Assembly (NCBI GenBank): GCA_937128475.1
Contig: CAKZML010000246.1
Location: 1-53,966, forward strand
Source of the DNA: an uncultured Chromatiales bacterium
GTDB lineage: Bacteria > Pseudomonadota > Gammaproteobacteria > Steroidobacterales > BM003
Length of the DNA: 53,966 nucleotides
Direction: 5' to 3'
Shown here: one piece after another, positions 1 through 12,550 of the stretch
Layout: the number at the start of each line of letters is the position of its first letter
Numbering within the stretch: position 1 is the stretch's first letter
Made by a program: the position numbers and the translations under genes
Notes under the pieces: generated by a model
Told to the model about the DNA's origin: nothing
Database searches by the model: none
The model's input: only the letters and a program-made list of their open reading frames with translations

Positions 1-342
1 GGCCACGTGGTGGTGAGCATGAAAAAACGTCGCAGCGTGGAGAATCACATCCATTCAATTCATGCCCTGGCCATGGGCAACCTGTGCGAACTGGCGGCGG
101 GCACATTGATGGAGGCCACCGTCCCGGTGAACATGCGCTGGCTTCCCCGTGGCATGCATATCGAATACCTGAAGCCGGCGCGCACGACCATTAAAGCCGA
201 GGCGATACTTGAGAAAACCCAGTGGCCGGGCAAGGAAGACGTGGATGTCCCGGTATCGGTGACCGATGCCAACGGCGAGGAAGTGGTGCGAGCACGCATC
301 ATCATGCACGTCTCGCCCAGGCCGCCAAAGAAAGACATCTAA
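1..342 (+). CDS. DUF4442/hotdog-fold thioesterase-like protein, 3' part
   Basis: The reading frame is already open at base 1 and ends at TAA 340-342, so the N-terminus lies outside the window; 113 codons are visible. The segment containing ENHIHSIHALAMGNLCELAAG resembles the core helix of the DUF4442 hotdog family, where an asparagine-histidine stretch precedes the long central helix. The rest (HIEYLKPARTTIKAEA and VTDANGEEVVRARI) fits the following strands. Such proteins are usually predicted cytosolic acyl-CoA thioesterases, but the substrate cannot be read from sequence. The ATG at 19 is internal to the conserved domain and is not a plausible start. The next gene is convergent. Family assignment is from recalled motif similarity. 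Confidence 0.75.
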   Translation, partial: GHVVVSMKKRRSVENHIHSIHALAMGNLCELAAGTLMEATVPVNMRWLPRGMHIEYLKPARTTIKAEAILEKTQWPGKEDVDVPVSVTDANGEEVVRARIIMHVSPRPPKKDI

Positions 343-369: not shown

Positions 370-891
370 TCAGGCCGATCGGGGGTTAACAGCCATACGC
401 TCCAACAATTGAGCGTGACGATACGCACGCTCCGCATCCGCATCACACTGCACGGGATGTATGGCGATCTGCTCAAGGTAGGCCGCTGGCAGGTCGTGAT
501 AACGCCCACCGGTCATCACCAGGGAGTGATACCAGTCATAGGGATGCAGTTCGTCGACCAGGTTCTGCGGTTGTGCAATGTAAGAAAACGCCTGGTGAGA
601 TTCACCGCCTGACAGCACATTCATGTGGCGAACCTCATAACCACCCTCGGCCCTGTCCAAGGCCGCCTTCTCTTGGGCATCGATATGGAACAATGCTCCG
701 TGTACCCGGGCCTTCGCGCCGGCGAGCATGACATTGCACTTGCCGGAGTTGTCCGCACCACGCTTGTTGAAAGCCAGCCGGTAACCCTCGATTACCGCAG
801 GACCAATTACCCGGGCTGAGGGCACCCGTTGCAGCAATCTTTCAGGGTGAAGATTGGATCCGTAGGCGAAATATTTCAGGCGACCGCTCAC
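370..891 (-). CDS. gamma-glutamylcyclotransferase-like protein
   Basis: This 173-residue protein starts FAYGSNL (residues 8-14), the nucleotide-fold signature of the gamma-glutamylcyclotransferase (GGCT/AIG2-like) family, and carries DRAEGGYE near residue 80, where the family places its catalytic glutamate. Characterised members release 5-oxoproline from gamma-glutamyl peptides or amines; which substrate applies here is unknown. No signal peptide is visible, so it is probably cytosolic. The GTG start overlaps the TGA of the upstream tail-sheath gene (GTGA, 888-891), which implies one transcript and translational coupling. That partner is unexpected for a glutathione-type enzyme. Family confidence is high, function moderate. 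Confidence 0.85.
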   Translation of the reverse strand: MSGRLKYFAYGSNLHPERLLQRVPSARVIGPAVIEGYRLAFNKRGADNSGKCNVMLAGAKARVHGALFHIDAQEKAALDRAEGGYEVRHMNVLSGGESHQAFSYIAQPQNLVDELHPYDWYHSLVMTGGRYHDLPAAYLEQIAIHPVQCDADAERAYRHAQLLERMAVNPRSA

Positions 892-2486
892 TGACCGTAT
901 TCAGCGTAAGGCTGCAGGTTGGATCGACTGATCCTGGCGCCATTGCGATGCTGGTTAATCTCGAAACTCAAAAACTCGCCGGGCCGGCGCAGGGAAAATC
1001 CCAGCACGAACCTGATTCCCTCGACATTGAAATCAGAGAATATGCCGCTGTCAGATTCACACCGTACGAAATAGGCCTCAGAAGGCTCGTCGCCAACCAG
1101 GGCGCCCTGCTTCCACAAGCCGTCCAGGTATTGCTCTACCTGGCTTTTCAACATCTGGGGCACGCTGGTGTCGGTGACACCAAAGACCGACCAGCGGGTT
1201 CCCCGCTCCACGTCCTGCAAGATTTTCAGGGACAGTCGCCGGGTAGCCAGGTACTTCCAACTGGGTGCCGAACTGTCCCCGGCAGCCATGGTTCGCGCCG
1301 AGGCCATGCGGGCCGGAGCGCCAGGGCGACCTGAGAGGATTCCATTCACACCCACCGATGCCAGGCGAATGGCGTCTTGCTCATCCAGCATGATGCAGGG
1401 CCGTGTACGGCTATTAATATTTGCCTTGTCACCGGACGGGGTCACCCACACTCCGTGACGGGCGTCATTACGCGCCAGCAGCCCGGCCACCACGCCACAG
1501 GGGGCCTGGGGACGATTCCGGGAAATACCGCCCAGGGTATGCAGCCTCGGGAAGGCAATCACCGCGTCTTCGCTGGCGAAATTCATCTTCCGCATGCCGG
1601 CAACCGCAAGATCCACGGTTGTCCATTCCGCGGGCGGGTCCACGATCAGCATCGCGCTGTGACTCTTGCAGTAACGTACTGCCGCCAGCCATGTCACCAG
1701 GTTCACGTCCCGGTCACGATCCAGGGGAGGAATGCACAGCAGGTTAAATCCATCGGTGCGGGACAGGGCAAACATGCCCGTGTACTTGGTAGCTGAACCG
1801 ATAATGTCGTAATCAGTCAGGGGTTCGCCATCATCACCATCGCGGTTGGTCGACAAGTAGCCAATATGTTTTTCCGGCGTGGCCGCCGGAGTGCGATCGG
1901 GTCGCACAGACGGAACATCTCCCTCCAGCGAAACCAGTCGGGAATCTGACAGGAAACTGGCGACAAACCGCTCATGGTCCTCCGAGACGGAAACGCCACG
2001 GTAACTCTCCTGCTCCAGGACTCGCTCAGACCCTGGTTGTGTCAGTCGCTGTACCACCAGGTTAAAGGCGCCGGTATCGGAACTTTCAATGCCGTCAAAA
2101 TCTACCGAGGCGCGAATCGCATCATGGGTACCCGGAGCACGCGCGCGCAACCGCAAAAATTCGTCTCCGGCCGGCAGGCTCAAGCTCGCTCCCCGACCCC
2201 CGTTGATCACCCGCACTACGAAAGCTACCTGGCCACCCTGGGAAAAATATTGTTCCACTGCAAAACTCAGCGGACTCATTCCCCAAAGACCACCAAAAAC
2301 GCGCTGGTAATCGGCGAAATTTTCCAGGCGTACGGGTTCGTTGACGGGACCACGCTGGGTCCGCCCAACAAATGCGGTTACGGAAGTTGGCGCACTGGCA
2401 ATGTATTGCTCGTGCTGCGGTATTTCCTGGACGTCGATGCCCGACGAATATTGTTCCGGCACAAAACCCTCCGGGGTTTTCGGCAA
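888..2486 (-). CDS. contractile tail sheath-like protein, solitary
   Basis: This 532-residue protein matches the phage/contractile-injection tail sheath family. The N-terminus has the pattern SGIDVQEIP, then TAFVGRTQRGPVNEPV, and SPLSFAVEQYF, where sheath proteins begin their first conserved domain. The middle holds CIPPLDRDRD and GVWVTPSGDKANI, and the C-terminus WKQGALVGDEPSEAYFVRC, both typical of the sheath core that wraps the tube. A TTG start is used (2484-2486), with a GGGGTGG stretch upstream; no ATG fits the conserved N-terminus. No tube, baseplate, tape-measure, ATPase or lysis gene flanks it: upstream is a divergent DMT transporter and downstream a coupled GGCT-like gene. It could be a relic, a domesticated sheath, or a subunit whose partners lie elsewhere. 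Confidence 0.88.
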   Translation of the reverse strand: MPKTPEGFVPEQYSSGIDVQEIPQHEQYIASAPTSVTAFVGRTQRGPVNEPVRLENFADYQRVFGGLWGMSPLSFAVEQYFSQGGQVAFVVRVINGGRGASLSLPAGDEFLRLRARAPGTHDAIRASVDFDGIESSDTGAFNLVVQRLTQPGSERVLEQESYRGVSVSEDHERFVASFLSDSRLVSLEGDVPSVRPDRTPAATPEKHIGYLSTNRDGDDGEPLTDYDIIGSATKYTGMFALSRTDGFNLLCIPPLDRDRDVNLVTWLAAVRYCKSHSAMLIVDPPAEWTTVDLAVAGMRKMNFASEDAVIAFPRLHTLGGISRNRPQAPCGVVAGLLARNDARHGVWVTPSGDKANINSRTRPCIMLDEQDAIRLASVGVNGILSGRPGAPARMASARTMAAGDSSAPSWKYLATRRLSLKILQDVERGTRWSVFGVTDTSVPQMLKSQVEQYLDGLWKQGALVGDEPSEAYFVRCESDSGIFSDFNVEGIRFVLGFSLRRPGEFLSFEINQHRNGARISRSNLQPYAEYGQ

Positions 2487-2509
2487 GCTTACACGGCCAC
2501 CCCTCTCGG

Positions 2510-2535
2510 TAACAGGACTTTCTGATTTCCTGTTA
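2510..2535. promoter_or_regulatory. 8-bp dyad ahead of the sheath gene
   Basis: TAACAGGA (2510-2517) and TCCTGTTA (2528-2535) are perfect inverted arms separated by 10 bp, so the half-sites are 18 bp apart centre to centre. The dyad lies 24 bp upstream of the TTG start of the sheath gene in the intergenic region shared with the divergent transporter. A second perfect palindrome, CAGTACTG (2541-2548), follows. Spacing fits a dimeric repressor operator, but an RNA hairpin in the sheath 5' leader is equally possible. Confidence 0.45.
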
Positions 2536-2627
2536 TTAAACAGTACTGATTATTGCGTTGCCCGTTACATTGCCCCAACATTGCCATCTTCTCCCCTCCC
2601 AAGTGCCCACGGGCGCTGGATAATTTC

Positions 2628-3563
2628 GTGCATACAGCCACCGGCAACTGGAAACTGGGTCTCGTGCTCTCACTGATCACCACCGTGATGTGGGGTCTTC
2701 TGCCTATATCCATGAAGTTGCTGCTGGATGAAATGGACGTCTATACCGTCACCTGGTATCGCTTCGCCTCCTCGGCCTTGATCATGGGTGCGTACCTGGC
2801 AATAAAAGGCGGCCTGCCTTCACTGAAACATTTGCGCGGAAGTTACGCCTGGCTAATGCTCATTGCGATTACCGGCATTTGCGCTAATTACCTTCTCTAC
2901 CTGATTGGTTTGCAACTGACCTCGCCCAGCATCGCCCAGGTCGTGATTCAGCTTGCGCCGTTACTGGTGATCCTGGGCGGAATCGTTTTATTCCGCGAAA
3001 AAATGAACCGTACCCAGGCACTGGGCGTGGCGGTGGTCATCATAGGTTTGCTGGTGTTCTTCAACGAACGACTGCCTGAACTGTTCTCAGCCGAAGGCGC
3101 CAATGGCAAGGGCGTGCTAATCATTATCGTGGCCGCAATAGTCTGGGCCGCCTATGCCCTGGCCCAGAAACAGCTGCTCAAGGTCTATTCATCCCAGGCC
3201 ATCATGTTAATGCTGTACTCGTTGGCCACTTTGGTTTTCCTGGCCCCCTCCCATGTAACCTCCATCACCTCCCTGAGCTCACTGGGGTGGGCCATGCTGA
3301 TCTTCTGTAGCGCCAACACCCTGATCGCCTATGGCTGCTTCGCCGAGGCCCTGCAGCAGTGGCAAGCGAGCAGGGTAAGCGCCGTATTGGCCATGGCGCC
3401 ACTGATCACCCTGTTCACCATCACCCTGATTGGCTGGCTGGCCCCCGAAATTGCCCTGGACGACCATATCGATGGTCTTTCGATACTTGGAGCGTTGATG
3501 GTAGTACTTGGCTCTGCCGCCTGCGCAACAGGTGGAATTAGACGAAAATCCATTCCCAGCTGA
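2628..3563 (+). CDS. EamA/DMT-family membrane transporter
   Basis: The protein is about 311 residues with ten hydrophobic segments arranged as two five-helix EamA repeats, the architecture of drug/metabolite transporters of the inner membrane. The first repeat begins near VLSLITTVMWGLLPI, and PSIAQVVIQLAPLLVILGG is the characteristic end of repeat one. The second repeat starts around GVLIIIVAAIVWAAYALAQK. The substrate cannot be inferred; family members export amino acids, nucleosides or other metabolites. The frame remains open upstream to 2553, but the extra 25 residues are polar and unlike the family, so GTG 2628, just before the first helix, is preferred. A weak GGA lies about 8 bases upstream. 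Confidence 0.85.
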   Translation: MHTATGNWKLGLVLSLITTVMWGLLPISMKLLLDEMDVYTVTWYRFASSALIMGAYLAIKGGLPSLKHLRGSYAWLMLIAITGICANYLLYLIGLQLTSPSIAQVVIQLAPLLVILGGIVLFREKMNRTQALGVAVVIIGLLVFFNERLPELFSAEGANGKGVLIIIVAAIVWAAYALAQKQLLKVYSSQAIMLMLYSLATLVFLAPSHVTSITSLSSLGWAMLIFCSANTLIAYGCFAEALQQWQASRVSAVLAMAPLITLFTITLIGWLAPEIALDDHIDGLSILGALMVVLGSAACATGGIRRKSIPS

Positions 3564-3614
3564 TAAACTAGGCACTCGACCGCTTCAATCTACGAACACG
3601 GACTAAAAATAATC

Positions 3615-4730
3615 GTGGACACAAATCAAAAAAACTCCCTGGCACTGTTCAAGGCTTTTCCCGGACTGGCTGCAAAGCTGGACTGGCTTCCTATTGCAGA
3701 CCTGCCGACGCCGATTCAACAGATGAACCTCCTGGCGGAGGAACTGGACGAGGACGACCTGTTTATCAAGCGGGACGACCTTTCCGGCAAAATCTATGGT
3801 GGCAACAAGGTCCGCAAACTCGAGTTCTTGCTGGCAGAGGCACGCACCCGGGGTTCAGATTCAGTCATGACCTTTGGCACGGCCGGATCCAACCACTGCC
3901 TGGCGACGGCTATCTACACGCGCCAGCTGGGCATGGAAGCGATATCAATACTCTCGCCCCAGACCAACTCTGCCGCCGTGGGCCGGAACTTGCTGATGGG
4001 CTACCACGTGGGCGCTGAACTGCACCACTACCACAGCGAACCCGCCGCAGATCGCGGTGCCGCATGGCAAAGCGCACGACGGCTTGGCGCAGGCAAGAAA
4101 GCTCCCCACATTATTCGTCGGGGCGGATCCTCTCCACTGGGGACCATAGGATTTGTAAACGCAGGTCTGGAACTGGTGGAGCAGGTCAGAAAAGGCGAAA
4201 TGCCGGAGCCAGATCTTCTCTATGTGGCGATGGGAACCATGGGCACTGCAGTGGGCCTTGCGCTAGGTCTGGCGATCGCTAATTTCAAAACCAAAGTCAT
4301 CGCGGTCAGGGTTGTGGACAAGCGCTACGGCAACGAGGATGGCTTCCACAAGCTTTTCGATAGCACTGCCACCATGCTGAACAAGCTGGATGAAAACTTC
4401 CCGAAACTGCGCTGGGTGGATGCAAATGTCGAGTTCAGGCATGAACAGTTTGGCCAAAAATATGCTCTGTTTACCGAAGCGGGGATGGAAGCGGTAAGCT
4501 TGTTGAGAAGCACAGAGGGCATTCAGCTTGAAGGTACCTACACCGGAAAAGCGATGGCCGCGTTGATTGCCGACTCTCTAGCTGGCAATCTGGAAGGCAG
4601 GCGAGTGCTGTTTTGGAACACGTATAATTCTCGTCAGTTCCCGGAAGAAGCCATGGAAAGGGATTATCAAAAATTACCTTTCCCGGTTCAGGATTATTTT
4701 GAAAAGGATTGCCAGGCACTGGATCCGTAG
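3615..4730 (+). CDS. PLP-dependent D-cysteine desulfhydrase/ACC deaminase-like enzyme
   Basis: A 371-residue fold-type II PLP enzyme of the ACC deaminase/D-cysteine desulfhydrase family. KRDDLSG (about 52-58) and GGNKVRKLEFLL (62-73) are the family signature; the lysine near position 65 is expected to form the Schiff base with PLP. GSNHCLATA and GGSSPLGTIGF correspond to phosphate and substrate binding loops. Members degrade D-cysteine to pyruvate, ammonia and sulfide, or deaminate 1-aminocyclopropane-1-carboxylate; sequence reading alone does not separate them. At 371 residues it is somewhat longer than the usual 325-340, with extra sequence at both ends. GTG 3615 is the start. It follows the DMT transporter on the same strand after a 51-base gap. 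Confidence 0.85.
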   Translation: MDTNQKNSLALFKAFPGLAAKLDWLPIADLPTPIQQMNLLAEELDEDDLFIKRDDLSGKIYGGNKVRKLEFLLAEARTRGSDSVMTFGTAGSNHCLATAIYTRQLGMEAISILSPQTNSAAVGRNLLMGYHVGAELHHYHSEPAADRGAAWQSARRLGAGKKAPHIIRRGGSSPLGTIGFVNAGLELVEQVRKGEMPEPDLLYVAMGTMGTAVGLALGLAIANFKTKVIAVRVVDKRYGNEDGFHKLFDSTATMLNKLDENFPKLRWVDANVEFRHEQFGQKYALFTEAGMEAVSLLRSTEGIQLEGTYTGKAMAALIADSLAGNLEGRRVLFWNTYNSRQFPEEAMERDYQKLPFPVQDYFEKDCQALDP

Positions 4731-8660: not shown

Positions 8661-9782
8661 CTATTGTGCGGCTTGGGGTTCAGCCAACAATGGCGCCTCA
8701 GCAGGCAACTCATCCACAAGCTCTTCCGGCACTGGCCGCGTGTGGCGAACCACGTTTACCTGCTCAAGGGCAGCCTGGACATCCAGGCTGTTCACCGAAA
8801 TCGGCAGGGGAATACCCATGGCTGCCTCGATTATTGCCCTGGCCTTTTCCCAGTCGATTTCACGACTGGCCACCCGGGGATCCTGCAACAGGCGTCCCTG
8901 GACTTCTTCCCAATGCCCCTGCCAGGTCTGGTCATCCTCAAACGGTGGATGCGCCTCCAGGTAAAGCTGACCATCGACTTCAGCAACGGAAATCGGCTCA
9001 TTGAGAATCGTCACCGGGGCGCCAACCGGCACCCGGGGAAACAGGCTTTCTATGTCCTCGGGATACAACCGGACGCAGCCATGGCTCACCCGCATCCCCA
9101 CACCGTATGGCTTGTTGGTGCCGTGAATCAGGTAACCGGGCATATCCAGCGCAATCGCATAGCCACCCAGGGGATTGTCCGGACCCGGCCCTACCCGGCG
9201 TGGCAACGGATCACCCGCCTCGGCATGTTCGGCGCGAATCGAGGCCGGTACAAACCAGACAGGATCCTTCGCCTTGGCCCTTACCTTTGCCTGCCCTGTG
9301 GGCGTGGCCCAACCCTCTCGACCCACACCGATAGCAAAGGTGTCCTGCAAGACTCCCTGCTCATCGAAGTGGAACAGTCGGCGACTGGCAACATTCAACA
9401 CCAGGCCTTCACGCTGGCTGGGCAGGATCATCCGGGTAGGCAGCAAAACCCGAGTACCTTCACCGGGCAACCAGGGGTCCACACCGGGATTCGCCTGGAT
9501 CATCTCGTCAAAACCCAGCCCGTGCTGCCTGGCAATATCGGGCAGGGTGTCTTCGTGATACGCGCTTATCCACTGCAAAGAACCGACGATGGATGCGTCG
9601 GCGGGCATCGACTCCAACTGGCGCAGGTCGATGGGAGCCTGGGGTTCAATAACAACAACCACCGAAGGCGGCGGCTCCGACTCCACCAGGGTTTCGTCTA
9701 AAGCCGCGTCGGGTTGCAGAAAAACGCAGGCAGAATTGAGGATGCAGCCGAAGATGAGTAGCGCTGATTTGGAAAAAGACAT
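8661..9782 (-). CDS. LysM-containing L,D-transpeptidase (YkuD family)
   Basis: About 373 residues. After an N-terminal hydrophobic signal (MSFSKSALLIFGCILNSAC; lipobox-like, though Asn at -3 is atypical) there is a proline-rich linker. A LysM-like segment follows (about 72-116, SAYHEDTLPDIARQHGL and ending RVLLP), then a YkuD domain (about 125-250). The catalytic signature is HGTN at 220 and SHGCVR at 233-238, with Cys236 as the nucleophile. Such enzymes form 3-3 crosslinks in peptidoglycan or attach proteins to it in the periplasm. ATG 9782 is chosen over an in-frame start 36 bases upstream because it places the signal peptide at the N-terminus. It is convergent with the ECF sigma gene and 46 bases after the lipA stop. 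Confidence 0.9.
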   Translation of the reverse strand: MSFSKSALLIFGCILNSACVFLQPDAALDETLVESEPPPSVVVVIEPQAPIDLRQLESMPADASIVGSLQWISAYHEDTLPDIARQHGLGFDEMIQANPGVDPWLPGEGTRVLLPTRMILPSQREGLVLNVASRRLFHFDEQGVLQDTFAIGVGREGWATPTGQAKVRAKAKDPVWFVPASIRAEHAEAGDPLPRRVGPGPDNPLGGYAIALDMPGYLIHGTNKPYGVGMRVSHGCVRLYPEDIESLFPRVPVGAPVTILNEPISVAEVDGQLYLEAHPPFEDDQTWQGHWEEVQGRLLQDPRVASREIDWEKARAIIEAAMGIPLPISVNSLDVQAALEQVNVVRHTRPVPEELVDELPAEAPLLAEPQAAQ

Positions 9783-9828
9783 GGGGGAACAGAGTAGCAA
9801 GTCGGCTGTGGTCGGCACAAAGCCGGCG

Positions 9829-10961: not shown

Positions 10962-11086
10962 ACGCAAGACAGGCAAACCCGTCAGAGAACACGTCTCAAT
11001 TAGCAAAAGTTAGACGTAGTTTCCTCACATTCATCGGCGCTTTGCCTTAAGATTCCGGGATTATTCGCATGTCACAGGATAAACCA

Positions 11087-12550
11087 ATGACAAAAAACCG
11101 GATCAGTGCCCTCCTCGGAACGCTCCTGATGGTCGCCAGCCTTTCCGGCTATGGCGCAAATGACGCTATTCGCGAGACTCTTTTCGGCGACGCCGACGAG
11201 GCGCGCCAGGCCGCAACCGCCGCCCAGGGGGCGCTGTTGGCTCCCCGCAGTTTCGAGCGCGCCACCAAGAGTTACCAAAGCGCCGAGAAGAAACTCGAAA
11301 GAGGCATGAAGGTAGACCGCATTCGCCGCGACCTGGATGGCGCCATCCAGGAATACCGCAAAGCGATCACCGCCGCTGAGTTGGCAAAAGTCACCTTTGG
11401 TAACATGATCAAAGGTCGCAACGATGCATTAGCCGCTGAAGCGAACAACCTGGCCAGTGACTTGTGGAGTCGCGCCGAGCGGGACTTTGAGCGCGCCGCT
11501 GTTGAGCTGGAAGTGGGCGACCTGCGGGCCGCACGCAAGCGAGCTGTGACGGCAGAGAACAATTTCCGCGATGCCGAACTGCAGGCCATCAAGACATCCA
11601 TGCTCAGCGAAACCCGTAGGTTGATCGAACAAGCGGATGACCGCCGGGCCGATCGTTACGCCCCCAAGACCTTCCAGAAGGCCCAGGTGCTGCTGGTACA
11701 GGCTGAACGTGAACTGGATGAAAATCGTTACGATGCGGACCTGCCACGATCGCTGGTCCGGGAGGCCCGTTACGAAGCACTGCATGCTATCTACCTGGCC
11801 GGCTATTTACGCGATGCTCGCGACCGGGATCTCTCAAGCGAAGACCTGGTACTGGAATGGGAGCGCCCGCTACATGAGATCGCCGCTGCCGGTGACCTGG
11901 TCGCCAGGCTGGACGATGGCTATGCCAAGTCCACCGCAGAGATCATCAAGTACATCGAGGACATGCGTATTCTCAATCATTCGCTGGAGCAGGACTTGCT
12001 TGAGCGTGATCAGCAGATGATGGCCATGAGCCAGGAAATCGAAGAACTGGATCAGCGCCTGGGTGGCGCCCGGGATGAGCGCATGGCCCTGGCCCAGCAA
12101 CTGGCAGGTCAGGAACGGGTGCGGGAGCAGGTCAAACAGGTTGAAGGCATGTTCACTCGTGCCGAGGCACTGGTGTTCCGCGAGGGCAATGATATTTACT
12201 TGCGACTGGTCGGCCTGAACTTCGATGTAGGCCGCGCGGAAATCTCGCCAATCAACTACGCCCTGCTGGGCAAGGTGCAAGATGCCCTGCGTGTATTCCC
12301 CGAAGCCTCAATGGTAGTGGAAGGCCATACCGACTCCCATGGCAGCAACGACTCAAACCTCACCCTTTCCCAGGAACGGGCGACCGCGGTCAGGGGCTAC
12401 TTGCTGAACAGCATGGGCATGGACCCGGCGATAATTTCAGCGGTGGGTTATGGCGAAACCCAGCCGGCGGCCAACAACGAAACCCCCGAAGGCAGGCGTC
12501 GTAACCGGCGTATCGATATCCGGATTCGTCCGGCTGCCGACATTCACTAG
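11087..12550 (+). CDS. OmpA-family protein with DUF4398-like helical region
   Basis: About 487 residues: an N-terminal hydrophobic signal, a long charged helical region (roughly 30-340; DUF4398-like, rich in Ala, Glu and Arg, with a coiled-coil part near 300-350), and a C-terminal OmpA peptidoglycan-binding domain. The domain is marked by VEGHTDSHGSND and GYGETQPAANNETPEGRRRNRRIDI, including the Asp and Arg used to bind diaminopimelate. It should link the envelope to peptidoglycan. ATG 11087 (AGGA 7 bases upstream) is preferred over ATG 11069 because it starts directly at the signal peptide. Relatives are often lipoproteins; here the expected lipobox cysteine position reads Tyr (SLSGYGA), so lipidation may be lost. 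It is divergent from lipA. Confidence 0.88.
   Translation: MTKNRISALLGTLLMVASLSGYGANDAIRETLFGDADEARQAATAAQGALLAPRSFERATKSYQSAEKKLERGMKVDRIRRDLDGAIQEYRKAITAAELAKVTFGNMIKGRNDALAAEANNLASDLWSRAERDFERAAVELEVGDLRAARKRAVTAENNFRDAELQAIKTSMLSETRRLIEQADDRRADRYAPKTFQKAQVLLVQAERELDENRYDADLPRSLVREARYEALHAIYLAGYLRDARDRDLSSEDLVLEWERPLHEIAAAGDLVARLDDGYAKSTAEIIKYIEDMRILNHSLEQDLLERDQQMMAMSQEIEELDQRLGGARDERMALAQQLAGQERVREQVKQVEGMFTRAEALVFREGNDIYLRLVGLNFDVGRAEISPINYALLGKVQDALRVFPEASMVVEGHTDSHGSNDSNLTLSQERATAVRGYLLNSMGMDPAIISAVGYGETQPAANNETPEGRRRNRRIDIRIRPAADIH

Follow-up and report, generated by a model that had tools for sequence, protein, structure and literature searches.

A lone sheath gene of the contractile injection system type, kept in many genomes of a gammaproteobacterial order

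The window, that is the whole stretch of 53,966 nucleotides analysed here, comes from an uncultured Chromatiales bacterium of the order Steroidobacterales and corresponds to an entire contig (C246, GenBank CAKZML010000246.1) of a 3.06 Mb assembly in 307 contigs. Near its left end it carries, on the minus strand, a gene for a protein of the contractile-tail sheath family followed by a gene resembling gamma-glutamylcyclotransferase (GGCT); the left flank is just 370 bp deep since the contig starts there. Sheaths are familiar as components of injection machines encoded by many genes, and a sequence-only reading of positions 370 to 2535 had proposed that this one stands alone, either as a domesticated sheath with an enzyme partner or as the end of a decayed element. 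The 532 residues which that reading gave to the sheath are those of a frame opened by the TTG at 2486; its upper limit, 2535, is not the start of the gene, which begins at 2486 or, with a GTG, at 2462. The GTG is the better start because GGAGGG lies 4 nt ahead of it and many homologues begin there, the matching residue being their N-terminus in the alignment. Residues are numbered below from the TTG at 2486, and the C-terminal domain is called tube-facing from what is generally known of sheaths. The gene and its parts are the following.

888..2486, minus strand: solitary sheath gene, from the open reading frame and homology; 532 aa from the TTG at 2486
2462, minus strand: likelier start of the sheath gene, a GTG giving 524 aa, from the sequence and the N-termini of homologues
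2467..2472, minus strand: GGAGGG, probable ribosome binding site of the sheath gene, read from the sequence
2388..2456, minus strand: N-terminal arm, residues 11-33, from the alignment
1791..2186, minus strand: outer (insert) domain, residues 101-232, with boundaries set by us from the alignment
951..1271, minus strand: C-terminal tube-facing domain with the C-terminal arm, residues 406-512, from the alignment

The assignment to the sheath family was confirmed by sequence and by fold over the full protein. The tail sheath family PHROG_23 matches it with an E-value of 1.2e-34, and the sheath of the contractile injection system (CIS) of Streptomyces coelicolor (PDB 8bky) aligns with residues 10-516 (phmmer E 3.7e-38) and matches the profile of the window's sheath family at 2.1e-105. 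Both Pfam sheath models remain below their curated cut-offs (26 versus 26.9 bits and 23.3 versus 31.4 bits). An AlphaFold model built from 17 sequences reached a mean predicted local distance difference test score (pLDDT) of 65.5, close to the 68.9 of a CIS sheath modelled as a control with the same rows; by blocks, the pLDDT is 73-92 for residues 41-200 and 221-300, 51-80 for residues 301-400, and below 56 for the arms and the C-terminal domain. In the fold search, this predicted structure matched CIS sheaths, the best match (VIA Z 30.6, 2.2 Å over 269 residues within 34-504) being an entry for the baseplate complex of the S. coelicolor system, 9gtp, and the matches listed by the two fold searches are contractile tails and CIS. 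The GC content of the gene, overall and at third codon positions (GC3), equals that of the neighbouring genes.

Tube, baseplate and tail terminator genes, with which a sheath normally works, were not found. Two hidden Markov models (HMMs) of the tube gave no match among the 452 open frames of at least 60 aa in the window, in agreement with the sequence-only reading, which had seen no tube gene in reach. Elsewhere in the same genome there is no match to the tube family PF06841 or to the tube profile A1, made for the tube type of the sister group, and none to Baseplate_J or to the tail terminator domain Pvc16_N; the baseplate family gp25 (PF04965), searched in this genome and not across the order, produced just a match below the cut-off (E 0.36). 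A tail cluster lying just beyond the end of the contig, which would have undone the proposal, is not indicated by the related genome G003, whose sheath is 92% identical to that of the window. In G003 one contig ends within the GGCT gene and another begins within it, with about 19 residues in common, and the second contig continues with a DUF4442 gene and a 1197-aa gene of 5-oxoprolinase type; no tail gene occurs among the frames of at least 120 aa in its first 6.5 kb.

The same is true of most of the order. The solitary type of sheath was recognized by score: a sheath match at E≤1e-5 is present in 143 of 196 genomes, two of which (G010 with 77 bits and G018 with 61 bits, both CIS-like) fall well below the at least 134 bits of all others, leaving 141 genomes with the solitary type. 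This count, the adjacency counts and the family denominators given below were made by hand from the match listings. PF06841 tubes occur in 7 of the 196 genomes, including four of the 141 (G008, G024, G104 and G132), so that 137 of the 141 have none. The match in G024 spans 48 model positions, and in G008, G104 and G132 the tube is part of another locus, which has a sheath of its own (L088, L085 and L086, respectively). Profile A1 is found in 5 of the 196 genomes, Baseplate_J in 5 and Pvc16_N in 4; PF06841, Baseplate_J and Pvc16_N are all missing from 135 of the 141. No tube HMM matched in any of the 63 regions around solitary sheaths that were compared. The features by which a CIS or extracellular CIS (eCIS) is recognized, namely a tube with the sheath, baseplate genes, Pvc16_N and conserved assembly arms, are thus lacking, and close phage relatives are lacking as well: only 8 of 50,697 phage records match the sheath, at 23-30% identity, and a scan of viral contigs for close relatives returned none. 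Two side observations concern CIS loci themselves. One genome of the order, G137, has a CIS tube match together with Pvc16_N (C8, near 3048-3892, the tube match lying about 3 kb from the contig start) and no sheath match at E≤1e-5. Four records filed as viral (L132, L133, L134 and L138) carry two tandem sheath genes, with a tube adjoining in L132 and L133, and appear to be fragments of CIS loci and not viruses.

The solitary sheath had one origin, was then vertically inherited and is under purifying selection. All four genomes of the window's own family have it. In a tree of 78 sheaths, the 63 solitary ones form one clade (Shimodaira-Hasegawa-like approximate likelihood ratio test, SH-aLRT, 99), which comprises 11 sampled families of one order, designated here by f codes. 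The eight families represented by several rows (f1, f4, f5, f6, f9, f10, f11 and f15) are all monophyletic, f2, f3 and f7 having one row each, and the 14 group labels on the tree need 13 changes, the minimum possible. The divergent L083, L085 and L086 were dropped from the tree, and from the neighbourhood counts these together with L080, L082 and L088; conservation counts use 63 of the 141 genomes. The ratio of nonsynonymous to synonymous substitution rates (dN/dS) is 0.069 against G003 and 0.158 against the congeneric G002. Outside the clade, the nearest kin are CIS sheaths encoded beside a tube gene, and these form its sister group. Some sheath match was obtained in 44 of 369 genomes sampled from the class, 5 of them in the order. 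The loci of the best 12 among the other 39 (L106-L117) were compared, and each of these has its sheath gene next to one for a tube. The locus L109, for example, contains sheath, tube, T4_baseplate, Pvc16_N, an AAA ATPase and a papain-like protease; its tube matches PF06841 at 7.5e-48, so this profile would detect a tube of that kind. In a sample of the phylum, 13 of 398 genomes have a sheath match at E≤1e-20. As an observation apart, a second sheath in the f6 genome G022 (L080, G022:C3:377000-395000) groups with CIS sheaths of other orders; its 18 kb region has no tube HMM match, and it is perhaps a second, independent solitary sheath.

The pattern of conservation within the protein is inverted with respect to that of its relatives. 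In CIS sheaths the arms make the mesh and the C-terminal domain contacts the tube, while the outer domain faces outward. Conservation among the CIS sheaths is highest in the arms and the tube-facing C-terminal domain and lowest in the outer domain, whereas the latter is the second most conserved region of the solitary clade. Mean identities over all pairs of the 63 solitary and 27 CIS sheaths are, respectively, 0.25 and 0.70 for the N-terminal arm, 0.47 and 0.49 for the region core1 (residues 34-100), 0.43 and 0.30 for the outer domain, 0.35 and 0.48 for the subtilisin-like domain, 0.33 and 0.74 for the C-terminal domain and 0.22 and 0.78 for the C-terminal arm. At matched divergence, meaning pairs at 45-55% overall identity (139 solitary and 100 CIS pairs), the corresponding values are 0.35 and 0.74 (N-terminal arm), 0.64 and 0.45 (core1), 0.53 and 0.27 (outer domain), 0.48 and 0.45 (subtilisin-like domain), 0.42 and 0.73 (C-terminal domain) and 0.37 and 0.79 (C-terminal arm). 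When the region labels were shifted circularly, none of 490 shifts reached the observed rank contrast (outer domain minus arms and C-terminal domain), and restricting the CIS set to 12 sheaths gave the same result.

Individual residues tell the same story. In the solitary clade 36 of the 132 outer-domain columns are at least 80% conserved, 11 of them newly so, as compared with 5 columns at 90% or more in the 12 CIS sheaths. R147 and Q159 are present in all 63 solitary sheaths and in none of the 12, Q146 in 57 of 63 versus none, and T199 in 56 of 63 versus none; Y210, D131, S231 and Y226 are also newly conserved. R125, D129, N142 and E160 are invariant in the 63 and frequent in CIS sheaths too, and position 130 is a tyrosine in 55 of the 63, with a phenylalanine in the window. 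Conversely, of the columns conserved to at least 90% in the 12 CIS sheaths, 7 of 9 in the N-terminal arm and 10 of 20 in the C-terminal arm keep their residue in fewer than 30% of solitary sheaths. These comparisons of aligned sequences show that the constraint has moved from the assembly arms and the C-terminal domain to the outer domain.

The genes which surround the sheath in the window are the following.

370..891, minus strand: GGCT (GGACT/AIG2-like), from Pfam and motif, with a GTG start
1..342, plus strand: DUF4442 gene, convergent neighbour whose 5' end is off the contig, from Pfam
2553..3563, plus strand: EamA-family transporter, divergent neighbour, from Pfam
8661..9818, minus strand: L,D-transpeptidase (cluster 1), from a Pfam scan (YkuD) of another member of the cluster

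The place of the sheath gene in the chromosome is old, and the other parts of the machine are not found there. Among 55 solitary regions, an L,D-transpeptidase lies upstream on the same strand in 38 (7 families) and is the immediate neighbour in 15, LipA is present in 24, SohB in 22, an M48 peptidase in 20 and, on the other strand, an ACC-deaminase-like gene in 22. A convergent gene of 5-oxoprolinase type (Hydantoinase A and B) follows downstream in 19 of the 55 regions, in 7 families, and is the next gene in 8. The EamA transporter is upstream on the opposite strand in 8 of the 55, and the sheaths of G002 and G003 likewise have DUF4442 on their downstream side. Gene calls in these regions come from a home-made selection of open reading frames with neighbours counted by midpoint, and LipA, SohB and ACC-deaminase-like are names given on reading the translations. 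The window keeps the order LipA, transpeptidase, sheath with 6 kb inserted, its same-strand L,D-transpeptidase lying 6 kb upstream of the sheath. We considered the L,D-transpeptidase as a partner and set it aside, since LipA, SohB and M48 are also syntenic and ancient synteny explains its presence too. In f6 (L039, L081, L087 and L091), the gene adjoining the sheath downstream on the same strand is that of an extracytoplasmic function (ECF) sigma factor, identified by Pfam on the L091 copy, and a pair of small conserved genes comes after it. In f15 (L071:6207-7514 and others) there are two conserved genes with no Pfam match, whose products have about 212 aa and 219 aa (clusters 22 and 26); cluster 22 is on the downstream side of the sheath in 8 regions of this family.

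The gene adjoining the sheath in the window is a genuine member of the GGACT family. Its GTG start overlaps the sheath stop by 4 nt (GTGA), just as the sequence-only reading had it, and the same overlap exists in G003 (L007). The protein matches Pfam GGACT (PF06094) above the cut-off (2.7e-11) and has kept YGSNL at residues 10-14, a motif with a role in GGCT, as well as Glu82. The latter aligns, at weak overall similarity (E 6.4e-05), with Glu98 of human GGCT, the catalytic residue of that enzyme. The dN/dS of the gene is 0.086 over 118 codons against G003. As a pair with the sheath it is conserved only in part. While the sheath proved to be widespread when other genomes were searched, a GGCT match exists in 54 of the 196 genomes of the order and adjoins the sheath in 16, which are all those among the 141 sheath genomes in which it lies directly downstream on the same strand (f1 2/4, f11 7/7 and f15 7/37). 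In the congeneric G002, the sheath is accompanied by DUF4442 and oxoprolinase, without GGCT. Three f11 copies (L043, L127 and L128, from G013, G026 and G058) keep the adjacency but no longer have the active-site Glu position, LGAAGAGY replacing LDxxEG, which leaves a slight chance that the role of these copies is not enzymatic. The GGCT tree, for which all adjacent copies but the fragment in G003 (15 of 16) were used together with copies from 21 of the other 38 genomes, is weak: it has 33 branches, of which 7 are starred. The distinction between adjacent and non-adjacent copies takes 4 changes on it as compared with 11.8 in shuffles, and it shows neither a single nor a multiple origin of the adjacency.

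These data make GGCT probably not the partner of the sheath, and we have set it aside as such because it is adjacent in 16 of 141 genomes only, is absent from G002 and lacks the Glu in the three f11 copies. Since GGCT produces 5-oxoproline and 5-oxoprolinase opens it, the convergent 5-oxoprolinase, which acts on the GGCT product, is more likely to be the functional neighbour of GGCT in f1 and f11, leaving the f15 pairs unexplained. Oxoprolinase is near GGCT in 3 of 8 GGCT regions (L049, L055 and L057) and, judging by G003, probably in the window too; the genes listed for L058 and for three f15 regions (L061, L066 and L078) do not include it, and none is present within the fetched f15 regions.

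Taking these results together, we consider it probable that the protein is an exapted CIS sheath which has lost its tail role and now binds a conserved partner or ligand through its outer domain. A CIS sheath would have been domesticated and kept as a single gene without the rest of its machine. Because the parts serving mesh and tube, i.e. the arms and the C-terminal domain, have been released, it most likely no longer serves a contractile tail, and since the outward-facing domain is the one now constrained, this domain is proposed to bind the partner or ligand. The protein would then reside in the cytoplasm, neither sheathing a tube nor injecting, and may act as a scaffold or adaptor, GGCT being a separate gamma-glutamyl enzyme encoded behind it in some lineages. 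A more detailed scenario is advanced tentatively: domestication may have happened once, in the ancestor of the clade, with loss of tube docking and mesh assembly, and the outer domain may have become a surface for binding or sensing, with a possible role in envelope biology that is suggested by the position of the sheath downstream of the L,D-transpeptidase on its strand in most regions. The domestication proposed by the sequence-only reading is therefore supported by the single clade, the vertical descent, the purifying selection and the lack of a tube in nearly all of these genomes. Its other proposal, a decaying CIS or prophage remnant, has in its favour that the sheath alone remains and that the Pfam scores are under the cut-offs, but it is refuted by the intact frame in the window, the open frames elsewhere, the low dN/dS against G003, the host-like GC, the conserved location and the monophyly of families across the order.

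Several observations weigh against exaptation for binding. The solitary type is not universal, 55 of the 196 genomes being without it, and G681, a class genome present in the phylum sample only, has a sheath 33% identical over residues 15-514 whose gene neighbourhood was outside the comparison. The CIS set is smaller and less diverse than the solitary one, and the region boundaries are our own. The arms and the C-terminal domain are of low confidence alike in the models of the window sheath and of the true CIS sheath, and this control is therefore uninformative on the loss of assembly. The window and f1 retain part of the arm motifs, and the N-terminal arm, present in most members, is conserved within f6 (0.62) and moderately within f11 (0.49) and f1 (0.46). 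According to one study, a phage sheath still forms polysheaths when up to 25 N-terminal or 100 C-terminal residues are removed, removal of 29 N-terminal residues abolishing this (PMC6357053); relaxed arms are thus no proof of lost polymerization. The same study reports that the phage protein self-assembles without other viral proteins, which, along with the persistence of the arm and the strong conservation of core1, could fit an empty polysheath, a tubeless sheath-like structure used as a cytoplasmic filament, spring or store. We regard this as unlikely: the identity of the N-terminal arm falls to 0.23 in f10 and 0.19 in f5, no C-terminal arm column is conserved to 80% in the solitary clade versus 20 at 90% or more in the 12 CIS sheaths, and the predicted starts of L060 and L052, if right, leave 10 and 3 residues ahead of the core.

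Two further explanations would give the sheath a known kind of partner. It could form a complex or pathway with GGCT and organize the breakdown of gamma-glutamyl peptides, as the GTGA overlap, the position of GGCT as next same-strand gene throughout the f11 sheath genomes and in some of f1 and f15, and the failure of the oxoprolinase explanation for f15 would suggest. We find this quite doubtful, given that no adjacent GGCT was found in 125 of the 141 genomes (contig ends may hide some), that the adjacent copies are not one clade in the weak tree, that the three f11 copies are without the active-site position and that the 19 regions, in 7 families, with a convergent 5-oxoprolinase-type gene are mostly without GGCT. 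Alternatively, the sheath could cooperate with a tube and a baseplate whose genes lie in other parts of the genome, a split CIS, for which one may cite the CIS with its own tube in G008, G104 and G132; these loci have their own sheath, the great majority of the genomes are without a PF06841 tube, Baseplate_J and Pvc16_N are equally rare and the C-terminal domain is relaxed, all of which makes such a split very improbable. Exaptation for binding through the outer domain is thus the reading that we retain.

Known systems offer only partial parallels. One of the closest is Cis2, the sheath of the cytoplasmic CIS of S. coelicolor (CISSc; 8bky, 8bl4 and 9gtp), which is homologous over its full length and has the same fold. 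It works with a tube in a machine seen extended and contracted, unlike the solitary sheath, for which no tube was found and whose arms and C-terminal domain are relaxed while its outer domain is constrained. Published work on this system (8BKY/8BL4) describes domain 3 of Cis2 as flexible and unresolved in the structure, and reports that insertions in the N-terminal linker block contraction (PMC10066040). The eCIS are close through the sister-clade sheaths, which sit in CIS loci, whereas the solitary sheath is a lone gene. The recombinant polysheaths of gp053 from phage FV3 resemble it in being made of a sheath protein without tube or baseplate, but are laboratory products of phage genes, as opposed to a natural chromosomal gene kept across the order (PMC6357053). 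N4-like phages (Schitoviridae) provide a precedent for a sheath-type binder, by name and description rather than by comparison of sequences: section 3.3 of a further article presents their "non-contractile tail sheath protein" as a receptor (PMC9230969). That protein belongs to the virion, in contrast to the solitary sheath, which is chromosomal with no phage genes recognized around it. The same section mentions sheath homologues on archaeal and bacterial chromosomes, without a statement there on whether they are solitary (PMC9230969), and PMC8987985 mentions sheaths in its references only. The open-licence literature found on solitary, orphan or domesticated sheaths, on sheath and GGCT, and on incomplete CIS describes no solitary conserved sheath, which is weak evidence of absence; the protein family is a known one, and it is its solitary use that is not described there.

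If the proposed exaptation is right, the solitary sheath would be a clear example of a component of phage tails put to a use that is not injection. Surveys requiring ten core genes miss it; residues of its outer domain are targets for mutation, and a partner can be sought with it. Finally, a minor observation in the window concerns positions 11069-12550, next to LipA, which encode a protein of 493 aa with an OmpA-like C-terminus as read from the translation.

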